Part shown: positions 38,211 to 44,171 of the stretch, one piece after another
How the letters are laid out: each line of letters opens with the position of its first letter
Position numbering within the stretch: position 1 is the stretch's first letter
From: Allocoprobacillus halotolerans
GTDB taxonomy: Bacteria > Bacillota_I > Bacilli_A > Erysipelotrichales > Coprobacillaceae
Length of the DNA stretch: 64,000 bases
Direction: 5' to 3'
NCBI RefSeq assembly: GCF_024399475.1
Contig: NZ_CP101620.1
Span: 2,771,608-2,835,607 of the forward strand
Program-made: the position numbers and the translations under genes
The notes under the pieces: generated by a model
Seen by the model: only the letters and a program-made list of their open reading frames with translations
The model's database searches: none
What the model was told of the DNA's origin: nothing

Positions 38211-39065
38211 TTAGCATATTTTTTGTTTCTTTGTATCAAATAATCTTTCAAAACTTTGTGGTGTTGGTGAGACAAAACGCATTTCTTTTTGTGTGAATGG
38301 ATGAATAAACATGAATTCATGCGCATGTAATCCTAAACGTTTTAATGGATTGGTTGTTGATTGATATTTGGTATCACCCACAATGGGATGATGTAAAGAA
38401 GACAGATGAACACGAATTTGATTTTTACGACCTGTATCTAAATAAATTTCCAACAAGCTATATTTTTGATTCGAACGAATGACACGATAATGGGTAATAG
38501 CTCTTTTTCCATTTTGTTTATTGGTTATATAGACATTTTGTGTCTTTGATTCTGCCAAATAATTATCAATTGTACCATGTGTTTTTTTCATGCGCCCTTC
38601 AACAACTGCCACATAACCTCTTGTTTTGACATATTGATCCCAATGATGTGTCAAAATATCGTAAAGCTTTTTATTTTTCACAAACATTAAAAGACCTGAA
38701 GTATACTGATCTAAACGATGGACTAGAAAAATATTCTCATGATGTGATGTTAAATATTTTTTAACAATCATATAAGCTGTCTTTTGACTTTCTTTAGCTG
38801 TTTCCTCACTTAATAAACCACATGGTTTATCAATCACAATGATGTCTTTATCTTCATATACAATAGGAAAAGGAAGAACATCTTTCTTTTTACCAATGGA
38901 AACAATCTGTCCCTTCTTTAAAGGATATGCATAATGTGTCTGAATATGTCCATCAACATAAATACGTTCAAATTTTAAAAGATTTTTTAATTCTGATCTT
39001 TTCTTAGATGTTTGTAATAAAAGAAAAGATAATAATGTCGTATCACTGTCTACTTTATATTCCAT
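38211..39065 (-). CDS. RluA-family ribosomal large subunit pseudouridine synthase
   Basis: The 284-aa protein has an N-terminal S4-like RNA-binding domain (about 1-60) and the RluA catalytic domain with HRLDQYTSGLL, where Asp119 is the catalytic residue. A second motif, GRKNQIRVHLSSLHHPIVGD, is also standard. It isomerises uridines in rRNA; the exact target (RluA/C/D-like) cannot be fixed. Its start overlaps the end of the glycerate kinase gene by 11 nt, so they are co-transcribed. Confidence 0.93.
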   Translation of the reverse strand: MEYKVDSDTTLLSFLLLQTSKKRSELKNLLKFERIYVDGHIQTHYAYPLKKGQIVSIGKKKDVLPFPIVYEDKDIIVIDKPCGLLSEETAKESQKTAYMIVKKYLTSHHENIFLVHRLDQYTSGLLMFVKNKKLYDILTHHWDQYVKTRGYVAVVEGRMKKTHGTIDNYLAESKTQNVYITNKQNGKRAITHYRVIRSNQKYSLLEIYLDTGRKNQIRVHLSSLHHPIVGDTKYQSTTNPLKRLGLHAHEFMFIHPFTQKEMRFVSPTPQSFERLFDTKKQKIC

Positions 39066-40171
39066 GAATCATATCCTCCATATGTTTCAAAACACTTTGT
39101 TTTAAATTCTCTTTTCCTTTTTCTAAAGCTTCACACAAAGGCATTGTTTTAGGTGTAATTGCCCAAACATTTTGAAAACCTAAAGCTTTTAAAACTTCTA
39201 AATCTTCTACTTTACCACAGAAAGCATAAACAGGTTTATGATATTTTTGAGCTAACTGTAAAACGCCATATGGTGTTTTACCAAATTGTGTCTGATAATC
39301 CATTTTCCCTTCTCCAACAATCACACAATCACAAGTTGAAATAGCATTTTCCAGTTGAGAAATACGACTAACGACATCAAAGCCACGCTGTAAATGTCCT
39401 TGACACAATAATAAAGCATAACCTAAACCTCCTGCAGCTCCTGCACCAGGTACATATTGTAAACAAGGTTGTGTTGTTTCCACAATAGATGCATAATGTT
39501 GCATGGACTGATCAATGATTTCACACTTGTCTAAAGGTAATCCTTTTTGTGGTCCATAGACATAAGTGGCACCTTGATGTCCACATAAAGGATTAGATAC
39601 ATCACAAACGCCTATGAGTTCTATATGTTTTAATCTTGCATCTAAATGACTCCAATCAATTTCAAAAACATCTTTCAATCCCTGCATTGTTAATGGTACA
39701 GGTTGATGTTGTTGATTCAAAAGGAAACACCTAACGCCGATAACATTCCCATTCCACCATCATTCGTAGCACTTCCGCCAAGACTAACCATGATACGTGA
39801 TACACCTAAATCCAAAGCTTTTAAAATCAATTCACCCAGCCCATAAGTCGTTGTCAAAGTAGGATTTTTTGATTTTCATCTAACAATTCCAAACCACACA
39901 CCTTCGCACATTCAATAATGGCACAATCTCCAACAATCCCAATAGGAACTTGACGTTTTTCAAATTGAACACCTGTGACTTGATATTCTTCCATCCTTCC
40001 AGATAATGTTGACATTAAAGTTTCCAGTGTTCCTTCACCACCATCAGCTAAAGGGATGCATTGCGTCAATATTGTGTTGTCATAATCATTGATAGCTGCT
40101 TGTATTTGTAAACTGGCATCTATTGCACTCATACTTTCTTTAAAAGAATCCGGAGCAATCACTATTTTCAC
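39055..40171 (-). CDS. glxK: Glycerate kinase (two homopolymer frameshifts)
   Basis: Product of about 370 aa of the GarK/GlxK family, phosphorylating D-glycerate. The N-terminal 105 residues are [20 protein letters not shown]...[13 protein letters not shown]. After ENQK one A seems missing (near 39862), and after GVSF one T (near 39721); restoring both links [15 protein letters not shown] and [20 protein letters not shown] to [11 protein letters not shown]. The final third has [17 protein letters not shown] and [15 protein letters not shown], which are typical of this family. Both defects are short A/T runs one base short, so they are more likely sequencing errors than decay. Confidence 0.85.
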
Positions 40172-40183
40172 ACTTTCACCTCC

Positions 40184-40207
40184 AAAAAAGAGTAGACTTC
40201 TCTACTC
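40184..40207 (-). terminator. Terminator of the P-type-ATPase-like gene
   Basis: On the minus strand GAGTAGA-GAAG-TCTACTC is followed by six T, just after the stop codon. Confidence 0.85.
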
Positions 40208-42156
40208 TATAAAATACATGTAGAATTACGTATGACAAAAGCCTTTAACAAGATTTCAATCAACACAATAGCCCATAAAGGAACCATAGTCCAGCTTAAG
40301 GCTGTGACAAGCATTGCAATCTTGATTACAACTGTCAAAATGTTATTTGCTACAGCAATTGTACGCATTTTTCTTGCAATTACAAATGTTTCATAAACTC
40401 TATTTAAGTCAGCATCAATTAAAACAATATCACTGTTTTCAACAACTTTAGGATCAGCTAACCCACCTCGCGAAATACCAACATAGCTTTTTTGCAACAA
40501 TTCAATATCTTTAAAAGTATCCCCAATATAAACAACTGGTCCTGTTAAAGAATCCATTGTTGCTAATTTTTCCTCATTCGTTAAATCATTATAAATTTTA
40601 TACTGATCATCTTCCAAAGCCACTGGTCCATCATTATAAATCACAAGTGATCTTCCCATATGAGAAAGTTTCTTGAATAAACTTAATTCCTCATTTGTCA
40701 CTTCAACCCCATCAAAACGATCATAAACAATTGTTTGTGCTGCATTCACGGAATCCAATCCTAATGATGATTCTACAATAATACCATTTTGAAAAGCTTT
40801 CGCAAAACCTGCCAGCATTCCTAAAGATGTCGCTTGATCACTTGATAAAGCGCCTGATATAACTAAGAAAACAGCACCGACATGAATAAACGAACTATAT
40901 TCTTCAAAATCAATCATTGGCAAAACAAATCCTAACAACAATCCTAAAACAATCATCACAGGTGTATAGAATTTTGCTAAATTTTTTGTATATTTTTCAA
41001 CTTTTGATTCATAAACAGGCGCAATACTTGCAATATTCATTAAATTCATATAATTTGAACTTTCATAAGTTTCATCAACTTGAATATAAAGTTCACTTTC
41101 GCCAACATTGACATCACCACTGCTAACATGACTTCCCTTTTTCACAACAACGGGTTCATAAGTACTTGTATTAGAATAGGTACTCATAGCAGAAACACCT
41201 TTATCAACAATACCAGGAATAGAGACTGTTTCACCAGGTTTAACAATCAATATATCTCCAATTTCCACATCATACAAAGATACTTTTTCTTCCAGTTCAT
41301 CACGATAACGTATACCAGTTTCTGGCATTTCTACTGCATTGTCAATTTTATGTAAAGAACGTTCAAGTACTTTATTTAATAATGGCGTTGATAATTCATA
41401 AATAATCAAAGCTACACATGTTTCAATATAAGCACCTGAAACAACACCAAAAATCATCGCAATAAATACTAATAATGATTCACCGAAATACTTTTTGGAT
41501 AAAATATCGCCCCATCCTTTTTGAAGCAAAGATGTTCCTAATAGCACAACTGTCACAAACCATAAAATCGGTGTAATAATAGTATCATCTTTAGATGTAA
41601 CAAGGGCTAAAGCAATCACCACCAGTAAAATACCAATACGCATATACATATGTAAGAACTTTTGATTAAATACATCTTGTGAACGAATTGGTCGATGATG
41701 TTCAATGATTTCTACAGATGGATTAATTTTAAACAATTCTTTTCTTAATAAACTTAAAACATCACGTTGTGATGATGTCAACAATAATAATTTATTTTGA
41801 GCATCATAACGGACGTTTTGATAACGTCGATCTTGTTCAATTCTTTCAACTAACACATAAATATCATCTTCTGTCAACATATTTTTAAACATGAAATAAT
41901 ATTGACGTTCTTTTCTTTTCGCAAAATCATATTCACGTTTCTTTCCATCCACGACTTCTTTAACAACTAACTCTTTATTAATACTTTGAATTAAGCTTAA
42001 TAAAGTATCAATATCTAAACAATGAAAAACAATACTGTCTTTATTGACTTTAATATGAGAAACTTGTTCTTTTTCATTTAATTTTAAACTTAAATGATTT
42101 AATTCTTCAACTGATTGAATATTTGAAATTTCAAAAGTCTTTTTCTTCAAACTCAT
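40207..42156 (-). CDS. P-type (P1B-like) ATPase homologue with altered catalytic motifs
   Basis: This 649-aa membrane protein has the fold order of heavy-metal P-type ATPases: an N-terminal soluble region with two HMA-like units (about 10-150) without CXXC, helices near 170-250, an actuator domain, two helices (about 395-440), a P-domain and two C-terminal helices. Key motifs are changed. The TGE loop reads STYEP (332-336); the CPC membrane motif reads SGALSSDQ (435-442); DKTGT reads DRFDG (480-484), keeping the Asp but not the Lys or Thr; GDGxND reads GDTFKD (546-551). It may not pump ions in the usual way and may be a sensor or pseudo-enzyme. Numbering counts from one residue before this ATG. 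The small Cys-rich gene upstream is likely in the same operon. Confidence 0.8.
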   Translation of the reverse strand: MSLKKKTFEISNIQSVEELNHLSLKLNEKEQVSHIKVNKDSIVFHCLDIDTLLSLIQSINKELVVKEVVDGKKREYDFAKRKERQYYFMFKNMLTEDDIYVLVERIEQDRRYQNVRYDAQNKLLLLTSSQRDVLSLLRKELFKINPSVEIIEHHRPIRSQDVFNQKFLHMYMRIGILLVVIALALVTSKDDTIITPILWFVTVVLLGTSLLQKGWGDILSKKYFGESLLVFIAMIFGVVSGAYIETCVALIIYELSTPLLNKVLERSLHKIDNAVEMPETGIRYRDELEEKVSLYDVEIGDILIVKPGETVSIPGIVDKGVSAMSTYSNTSTYEPVVVKKGSHVSSGDVNVGESELYIQVDETYESSNYMNLMNIASIAPVYESKVEKYTKNLAKFYTPVMIVLGLLLGFVLPMIDFEEYSSFIHVGAVFLVISGALSSDQATSLGMLAGFAKAFQNGIIVESSLGLDSVNAAQTIVYDRFDGVEVTNEELSLFKKLSHMGRSLVIYNDGPVALEDDQYKIYNDLTNEEKLATMDSLTGPVVYIGDTFKDIELLQKSYVGISRGGLADPKVVENSDIVLIDADLNRVYETFVIARKMRTIAVANNILTVVIKIAMLVTALSWTMVPLWAIVLIEILLKAFVIRNSTCIL

Positions 42157-42206
42157 CACCCTTTCTACGACATCATAACATATTTTTCATAAAAAACAAA
42201 GAAACA

Positions 42207-42449
42207 TCATGATTTCTCATCAGATGTATAATGTTTTATCAAACGAAAATATTCTTTAAACTCTGTTTCACTACAACTTAAAGAAAATTCTTCTCCATAA
42301 ATCTTATAAAATGAAACTTCCATGTCACCTGTACGAATCATACATGCATAAATCTGATTCTTTTGAAAAATAATCAATTCTTCTTTACCAATGACCATTT
42401 GCATATCCTGAATACAACGACAATAACAACGTTTTCCTTCATTAGCCAC
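42207..42449 (-). CDS. Small Cys-rich hypothetical protein (80 aa) upstream of the ATPase-like gene
   Basis: The likely start is the GTG at 42449, eight nt after AGGAGG; a GTG nine nt earlier overlaps that site. The protein begins ANEGKRCYCRCIQDM, with three Cys in a CxCxC arrangement, and ends EYFRLIKHYTSDEKS. It has no membrane segment. It ends 50 nt before the P-type-ATPase-like gene on the same strand, with no terminator between. The Cys cluster might bind a metal, which would fit the neighbour, but this is inferred. No family is recognised. Confidence 0.65.
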   Translation of the reverse strand: MANEGKRCYCRCIQDMQMVIGKEELIIFQKNQIYACMIRTGDMEVSFYKIYGEEFSLSCSETEFKEYFRLIKHYTSDEKS

Positions 42450-42493
42450 AGGTGACACCTCCTTAAATGTATTCTATCACTTTTTGAATGGCT

Positions 42494-42524
42494 AAAAAGA
42501 AAAATGATACTCGGTGAGTATCAT
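42494..42524 (-). terminator. Terminator of prfC
   Basis: On the minus strand ATGATACTC-ACC-GAGTATCAT is followed by TTTTCTTTTT, at the prfC stop codon. Confidence 0.9.
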
Positions 42525-44110
42525 TTAGTTTTGAGAAAATTCAGCTAAAACAAGGTCTGGGTTTTTATCCGTTGCCCAACGTACACCCCATTCATTAGAG
42601 AATAATAATAGATATTGTCCTTTTAAATCCTGTACTTTCTTTGTATCTGAAGAAAGATTAAGCTTTTTAAAATCAACTTCATTATTTTTAATCCAGCGAA
42701 TAAATTGATAAGGCAATGGTGTACTTATAATATCGACATTATATTCATTCTTTAAACGATAAGCTAAAACTTCAAATTGAAGCACACCGACAACACCAAC
42801 AATGATTTCTTCCATACCGCCACCAAGTTCAGTAAAAATCTGAATGGCACCTTCTTGAGCAATCTGTTCTACTCCTTTTACAAATTGTTTACGTTTCATT
42901 GTATCTTTATTTCTAATCATTGAAAAATGTTCAGGCGCAAATGTTGGAATACCTTCATAGGCAAATTTATTTTTGGCTGTACATAAAGTATCCCCGATTG
43001 AAAAAATACCTGGATCAAAGACACCGATAATATCACCTGAATAAGCTTCTTCCACTTCTTCACGATTTTCAGCCATTAATTGTTTAGACTGATTGAGTTT
43101 AATTTTCTTGTTGCCTTGATAATGGAAAACTTCCATTCCCTTAGTAAACTTTCCAGAACAAATACGCATAAAAGCCATACGGTCACGATGGGCTTTATTC
43201 ATATTGGCTTGAATCTTAAAGACAAAGGCACTGAAATCTTCAGAAAATGGATCAATTTCACCAATATTACTTTGACGTGGTAATGGTGATGAAGTCATGG
43301 ATAAAAAGTGTTTTAAGAAAGGTTCAACACCAAAGTTTGTTAAAGTAACCAAAGCAAACTGGTGAAAGTTCACCTTTTTGGACACGTTCTAAATCAAACT
43401 CAGCCCCTGCACCATCTAATAATTCAATATCATCTTGTAACTGTTGATATAATGTATCGCCTAACTGTTCTTTTAAACTTTCATCTTTAGCATCACATAT
43501 CGTGACATCAACTTCTTTTTCCCACCTTGAACAGGAATAAAACGAATGACTTCATCTTTTTGACGTTCATAGACACCTTTAAAGTCTTTTCCACAACCAA
43601 TTGGCCAATTGACAGCACATGTTTCAACACCCAATTCACGTTCAATTTCTTCCATTAATTCATAAGGATCTTTGGCTTCTCGATCCATCTTATTAATAAA
43701 TGTAAAAATGGGAATATGTCGCATCGCACAAACTTTAAAAAGTTTACGTGTCTGATCTTCGACACCTTTTGAACCATCTATCACCATGACAGCACTATCA
43801 GCTGCCATTAAAGTACGATAAGTATCTTCAGAGAAGTCCTGATGTCCTGGTGTATCCAATATATTAATACAGAAACCATCATAATTAAACTGTAAGACAG
43901 ATGATGTGACAGAAATTCCTCTTTGTTTTTCGATTTCCATCCAGTCACTAACAGCATGTTTTGATTGTTTTTTCCTTTGACCATTCCGGCTTCCTGAATG
44001 GCACCTCCATAAAGAAGGAATTTTTCTGTTAAAGTTGTTTTCCCGGCATCCGGATGCGAAATAATCGCAAAAGTTCTACGTTTTTGTACTTCTTCTTTAA
44101 ATTCTGACAT
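42525..44110 (-). CDS. prfC: Peptide chain release factor 3 (three frameshifts)
   Basis: RF3 is a GTPase that removes RF1/RF2 from the ribosome after peptide release. The G1 motif SHPDAGKTT, the switch region [26 protein letters not shown] and NKMDRE are all present, and the total fits a normal 528-530 aa protein. Three frame breaks occur. GGAAAAAACAATC lacks one A near 43970, and GGGAAAAAGAAG lacks one A near 43520. A further indel near 43355 lies at the SPVxFG...LTNFG junction. Three independent small indels in one conserved gene, two of them in homopolymers, argue for sequence errors, though a real pseudogene is possible because prfC is often dispensable. Confidence 0.88.
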
Positions 44111-44171
44111 GATTTTCCTCCTTCATATCTCCAAGAAAACATATTAAAGAAAATCTGAATATTTGTCAATT

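Follow-up and report, generated by a model that had tools for sequence, protein, structure and literature searches.

A P1B-type ATPase derivative without a nucleotide-binding domain is conserved in one Erysipelotrichaceae lineage and linked to a small four-cysteine protein

P-type ATPases are defined by a reaction cycle which requires the nucleotide-binding (N) domain, the aspartate of the DKTGT motif and the glutamate of the TGE motif. The closest described relatives of the protein analysed here are the Zn/Cd P1B ATPases of the ZntA/CadA type (TIGR01512, TIGR01525; structures 4umv and 7qbz), with which it has in common the eight-helix layout, the actuator (A) domain, the fold of the phosphorylation (P) domain and the N-terminal ferredoxin-like domains, and whose branch is nearest to it in the tree. 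Unlike these pumps, it has no N domain, no TGE and no CPC, and both DKTGT and GDGxND are replaced. The same losses separate it from the Cu P1B ATPases, among which CopA (7r0g) is its best structural match. Small HAD phosphatases share with it a minimal HAD core, the motif I aspartate and a motif IV of the GDxxxD form; unlike them, it is a descendant of P-type ATPases and retains their membrane scaffold. A limited search of open-access papers for pseudo or N-domain-less P-type ATPases found nothing relevant.

The window, i.e. the whole stretch of 64,000 nucleotides analysed from Allocoprobacillus halotolerans, contains the pseudo-ATPase gene as one unbroken frame of 650 codons (649 in the preliminary description of this DNA), which starts with GTG and has an ATG one codon downstream. 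A gene of about 80 codons, encoding a small protein with four cysteines (the Cys4 protein), lies 48 bases upstream. The two genes are bracketed by terminator-like hairpins in three genomes, and the downstream hairpin agrees with the terminator which had earlier been attributed to the pseudo-ATPase gene. The features of the locus are listed in Table 1.

Table 1. Features of the pseudo-ATPase locus (positions in the window)
Feature	Position	Strand	Basis or remark
Terminator-like hairpin following prfC; upstream limit of the two-gene unit	42502..42526	minus	also in L031 and L034
Small Cys4 protein (CRC ... YxC ... LSC), predicted small beta barrel	42207..42458	minus	upstream of the pseudo-ATPase, same unit
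P1B-derived pseudo-ATPase, 650 aa, without N domain	40207..42159	minus	
HMA-like (ferredoxin-like) domain 1 at the N terminus, residues 1-76, lacking the CxxC metal motif	41929..42156	minus	AlphaFold2
Second HMA-like domain (residues 84-153), free of Cys	41698..41907	minus	AlphaFold2 model
Family-specific motif (K/R)PxxSQDxF, residues 155-163, immediately ahead of the first membrane helix	41668..41694	minus	
A (actuator) domain, residues 275-384	41005..41334	minus	Pfam E1-E2_ATPase
TGE position of the A domain, T330-S331-T332; Glu lost in all members	41161..41169	minus	
CPC position of M4, G435-A436-L437	40846..40854	minus	
Minimal P (HAD-like) domain (residues 457-583), the best conserved region	40408..40788	minus	
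DRFDG, scar of the N-domain deletion; D479, R480, D482 invariant	40708..40722	minus	
NDGP replacing TGD of motif II; invariant	40624..40635	minus	
GDTFKD replacing GDGxND; G545, D546, K549, D550 invariant	40507..40524	minus	
Terminator-like hairpin following the pseudo-ATPase; downstream limit	40189..40208	minus	also in L031 and L034

The preliminary description recognized the P1B-like layout and the replaced motifs, and overlooked the main point, the loss of the N domain, as well as the linked Cys4 protein. The P1B-like layout is incomplete. The distance from the motif I aspartate to the motif II position is 29 residues in all 23 aligned family members, compared with 108-126 residues in canonical P1B ATPases (34 sequences from relatives), which means that the entire N domain is gone. 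The register of the deletion was established by profile-profile alignment to the canonical set with its N domain excised (E 9.6e-29): D479-R480 corresponds to the DK of DKTGT, and D482 to the aspartate of the second hinge. DRFDG is therefore a deletion scar, and although its first residue is indeed the DKTGT aspartate, it is not a point-mutated DKTGT as had been supposed.

Profile-profile alignment also places GDTFKD on GDGIND; the phosphorylatable aspartate and the Mg-binding aspartates are kept, as had been claimed. The essential Lys and Thr of DKTGT are gone, with R480 in place of the lysine and F481 at the threonine position. SGALSSDQ, DRFDG and GDTFKD all occur as first quoted, whereas STYEP lies slightly beyond the true TGE position; the loss of the glutamate itself extends to all aligned members. 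Motif I reads DRFDG or DRIDD in 26 of 26 orthologues and motif IV has the general form GDxxKD, with both aspartates preserved. D482 was also considered as the acid/base residue of HAD enzymes (D+2), and this assignment was rejected, since the profile alignment identifies it as the old hinge aspartate; the second motif I aspartate usual in HAD phosphatases is absent.

Could the protein still be a working ATP-driven metal pump, in which these alterations are tolerated? The overall P1B fold and the eight predicted helices speak for it, but there is no N domain, TGE or CPC, and the family alignment of the membrane part revealed no conserved set of metal ligands. The CPC/SPC site of M4 has disappeared together with its proline, the M5 lysine is retained in one sub-clade only, and the M6 aspartate position is occupied by Glu, Asn, Tyr and once by Asp. 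Glu245 in M2, which aligns with the conserved M2 glutamate of the Zn/Cd pumps, is the sole invariant charged residue within the predicted membrane helices. An ATP-driven metal pump is thus very unlikely, and the earlier suggestion of a transporter of something unusual is also unlikely, considering the state of M4, M5 and M6.

In the AlphaFold2 model, calculated on the family alignment (pLDDT 77.7, pTM 0.58), HMA-like domain 1 has the order beta-alpha-beta-beta-alpha-beta, and the model further contains the second ferredoxin-like domain, eight helices, the actuator domain and the minimal P domain. Pfam matched the actuator domain alone in the pseudo-ATPase (PF00122, 6.1e-15; matched in all 23 members), and its HMA model reached domain 1 in two of the 23 members (E about 0.1). 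Within the family-specific motif (K/R)PxxSQDxF, P156 and D161 are invariant among the 23 aligned members, and S159, Q160 and F163 nearly so. The best PDB matches of the model are P1B ATPases (7r0g: Z 25.9, rmsd 6.9, 454 residues), and the P domain alone resembles that of CopA (3a1e: Z 17.6, rmsd 2.7, 139 residues). The P1B fold and the arrangement of the eight transmembrane helices, which follows that of P1B ATPases, are features of a predicted model.

Common descent with P1B ATPases is supported by profile alignment (E 2.6e-32) and by the tree. Among the NCBIfam profiles the Cd/Zn profile (9.6e-40) is stronger than the Cu profile TIGR01511 (1.6e-21), and the score of 138.5 bits lies far under the curated cut-off of 346.25 for Zn/Cd-type ATPases. 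The family and two degenerate members form one clade (support 1.0) beside the Zn/Cd P1B ATPases, and the N-domain deletion therefore most simply arose once. The sequence comparisons suggest that the pseudo-ATPase derives from a Zn/Cd-type P1B ATPase, and that the N domain was lost once, in an ancestor belonging to a single Erysipelotrichaceae lineage.

This lineage of gut bacteria comprises Massilimicrobiota (placed within Erysipelotrichaceae by the NCBI taxonomy), Longibaculum, Stoquefichus, Thomasclavelia and Faecalibacillus, and a profile of the C-terminal part detected the gene as a single copy in 32 of its 43 genomes. Outside the lineage, profile searches found no pseudo-ATPase in samples of the class and the phylum; a scan of 84,980 GTDB species genomes, which was pattern based and may let remote members escape, returned only genera of the lineage, Erysipelotrichaceae, or close or unplaced relatives. 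Plasmid records yielded canonical P1B ATPases only, none of them with 80% coverage. The sole class-level match outside the family (G347, L069) was rejected as a canonical CadA-like ATPase adjoining an ArsR-type regulator.

The first search found full-length orthologues with the same replacements in 26 genomes, and the motif changes are conserved across 23 full-length orthologues of 30-90% identity, with canonical motifs absent from the corresponding columns. The four Massilimicrobiota sequences compared have an overall dN/dS of 0.08-0.12, which falls to 0.058 in the P domain; the corresponding values are 0.08 for a canonical P1B pump from this genus and 0.19 for the Cys4 gene. Invariant positions are concentrated in the P domain (27/127, 21%, vs 23/522 in the rest; Fisher p 1.4e-8, indicative only, as the rows are related), and D479, R480, D482, N508, K530, D546, K549 and D550 never vary in the 23 members. 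The pseudo-ATPase is kept under strong purifying selection. An ordinary decaying pseudogene, to which the missing hallmark motifs and some broken neighbours in the assembly might point, is hardly credible: decay was rejected given a dN/dS of about 0.1, full-length frames in all 26 orthologues first found, and the persistence of the replaced motifs in orthologues of as little as 30% identity. The preliminary view of a diverged pseudo-enzyme encoded by an intact gene is upheld, with the motif changes fixed and the family monophyletic.

The second component of the locus is the Cys4 protein, whose four cysteines (in CRC, YxC and LSC) are invariant in 20 sequences. Its model (pLDDT 82.9) is a small beta barrel, weakly SH3-like (best Z 5.7); Foldseek returned nothing below 0.001 for it, and no credible match of the protein was found in Pfam and PHROGs. 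Wherever the context of an orthologue was examined (24 cases), the Cys4 gene lies upstream of the pseudo-ATPase gene, in most cases with nothing in between; Thomasclavelia has an intervening GNAT gene, and one genome has two intervening genes. Within the class sample the protein is confined to the lineage, where 34 of the 43 genomes encode it. The other neighbours are housekeeping genes (prfC and those for IF3, L35 and L20), which give no hint of a metal pathway, and Rfam detected nothing near the operon.

The architecture (sequence and predicted model), the single origin, the purifying selection and the linkage with the Cys4 gene constitute the established part of these results. As a candidate function, we favour (with a probability of roughly 0.55) a pseudo-pump which, together with the Cys4 protein, acts as a sensor or scaffold in the membrane. 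In this view, a Zn/Cd-type P1B ATPase lost the N domain along with the TGE glutamate, the CPC of M4 and the Lys/Thr context of DKTGT, and retained the eight-helix membrane part, the actuator domain, the two N-terminal ferredoxin-like domains and a minimal phosphorylation domain. The latter preserves the acceptor aspartate, the motif III lysine and both Mg-binding aspartates, and has an arginine for the lysine of DKTGT. Such a protein would run no ATP-driven transport cycle; its remnant P domain may have Mg2+, phosphate or a phospho-compound as a small ligand, and the Cys4 protein may bind metal or sense the redox state and dock on the cytoplasmic domains. The word "sensor" is used here as a hypothesis. 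If this reading is correct, this lineage, in which the N domain disappeared once and the rest was strongly selected, would have a conserved pseudo-pump that shows, as an experiment made by nature, what an actuator, a P domain and a membrane part can do without ATP.

The invariance of D479, R480, K530, D546 and D550 could reflect residual chemistry and not binding alone. This leads to the main rival of the sensor or scaffold, an unlikely one in our estimation, in which the minimal P domain would still be phosphorylated, with a small donor such as acetyl phosphate or a partner kinase replacing the ATP held by an N domain, and this would bring about a change of conformation and perhaps transport. 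Such a machine would fit a P domain which is the slowest-evolving region, in which the motif III lysine and every acidic residue of the HAD type are invariant, and whose motif IV resembles the generic HAD phosphatase motif. However, the TGE glutamate needed for dephosphorylation is lost, F481 stands at the threonine position, motif II has Asn, the canonical membrane metal site is gone, and two remoter members (L110, L111) have lost the acceptor aspartate itself. It is also conceivable, if quite improbable, that a P-type ATPase was rebuilt as a receptor, whose N-domain-free P domain would serve as a phospho-receiver or phosphate/ligand sensor and would signal through the actuator and the membrane helices with the metal-binding Cys4 partner.

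The two remoter proteins (593-594 aa) have the same layout and lack the YDRxD and GDxxKD signatures. Their genes are located after prfC in G005 and after the Cys4 gene in G006, where the pair is still together and no longer directly beside prfC. The loss of the acceptor aspartate in these members means that the fold can be kept without catalysis, and in G005 and G006 at least, catalysis is not the reason for its retention.

A further conceivable role is that of a regulatory subunit, which would dimerise or compete with the cell's own canonical Zn/Cd P1B ATPase. An intact TIGR01512-type ATPase of 630 aa is present in the same genome and has the fold in common with the pseudo-ATPase. This possibility is nevertheless decidedly doubtful, since the two genes are unlinked and the canonical ATPase also occurs in a genome without the pseudo-ATPase (G012).

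Several minor observations concern the surroundings of the pair. In the assembly, prfC (42525-44122) and the glycerate kinase gene (39055-40171) are broken by frameshifts or stops, both being intact in close relatives (L031), and a P1B ATPase elsewhere in the same genome (G000:C1:568329-570009) is split too; these breaks are due to recent decay or to errors in the sequencing. The order prfC-glycerate kinase-RluA is largely preserved in eight relatives that lack the pair (L144-L151), seven of which carry, at the corresponding slot, an unrelated membrane protein of about 210 aa (no Pfam match for the one checked). G005 encodes a protein of the pseudo-ATPase type without the Cys4 protein. The reverse is seen in G013 (L132:4524-4745), where the Cys4 protein has no adjoining pseudo-ATPase and its gene stands beside an HD-type gene and one for a small P-loop protein.
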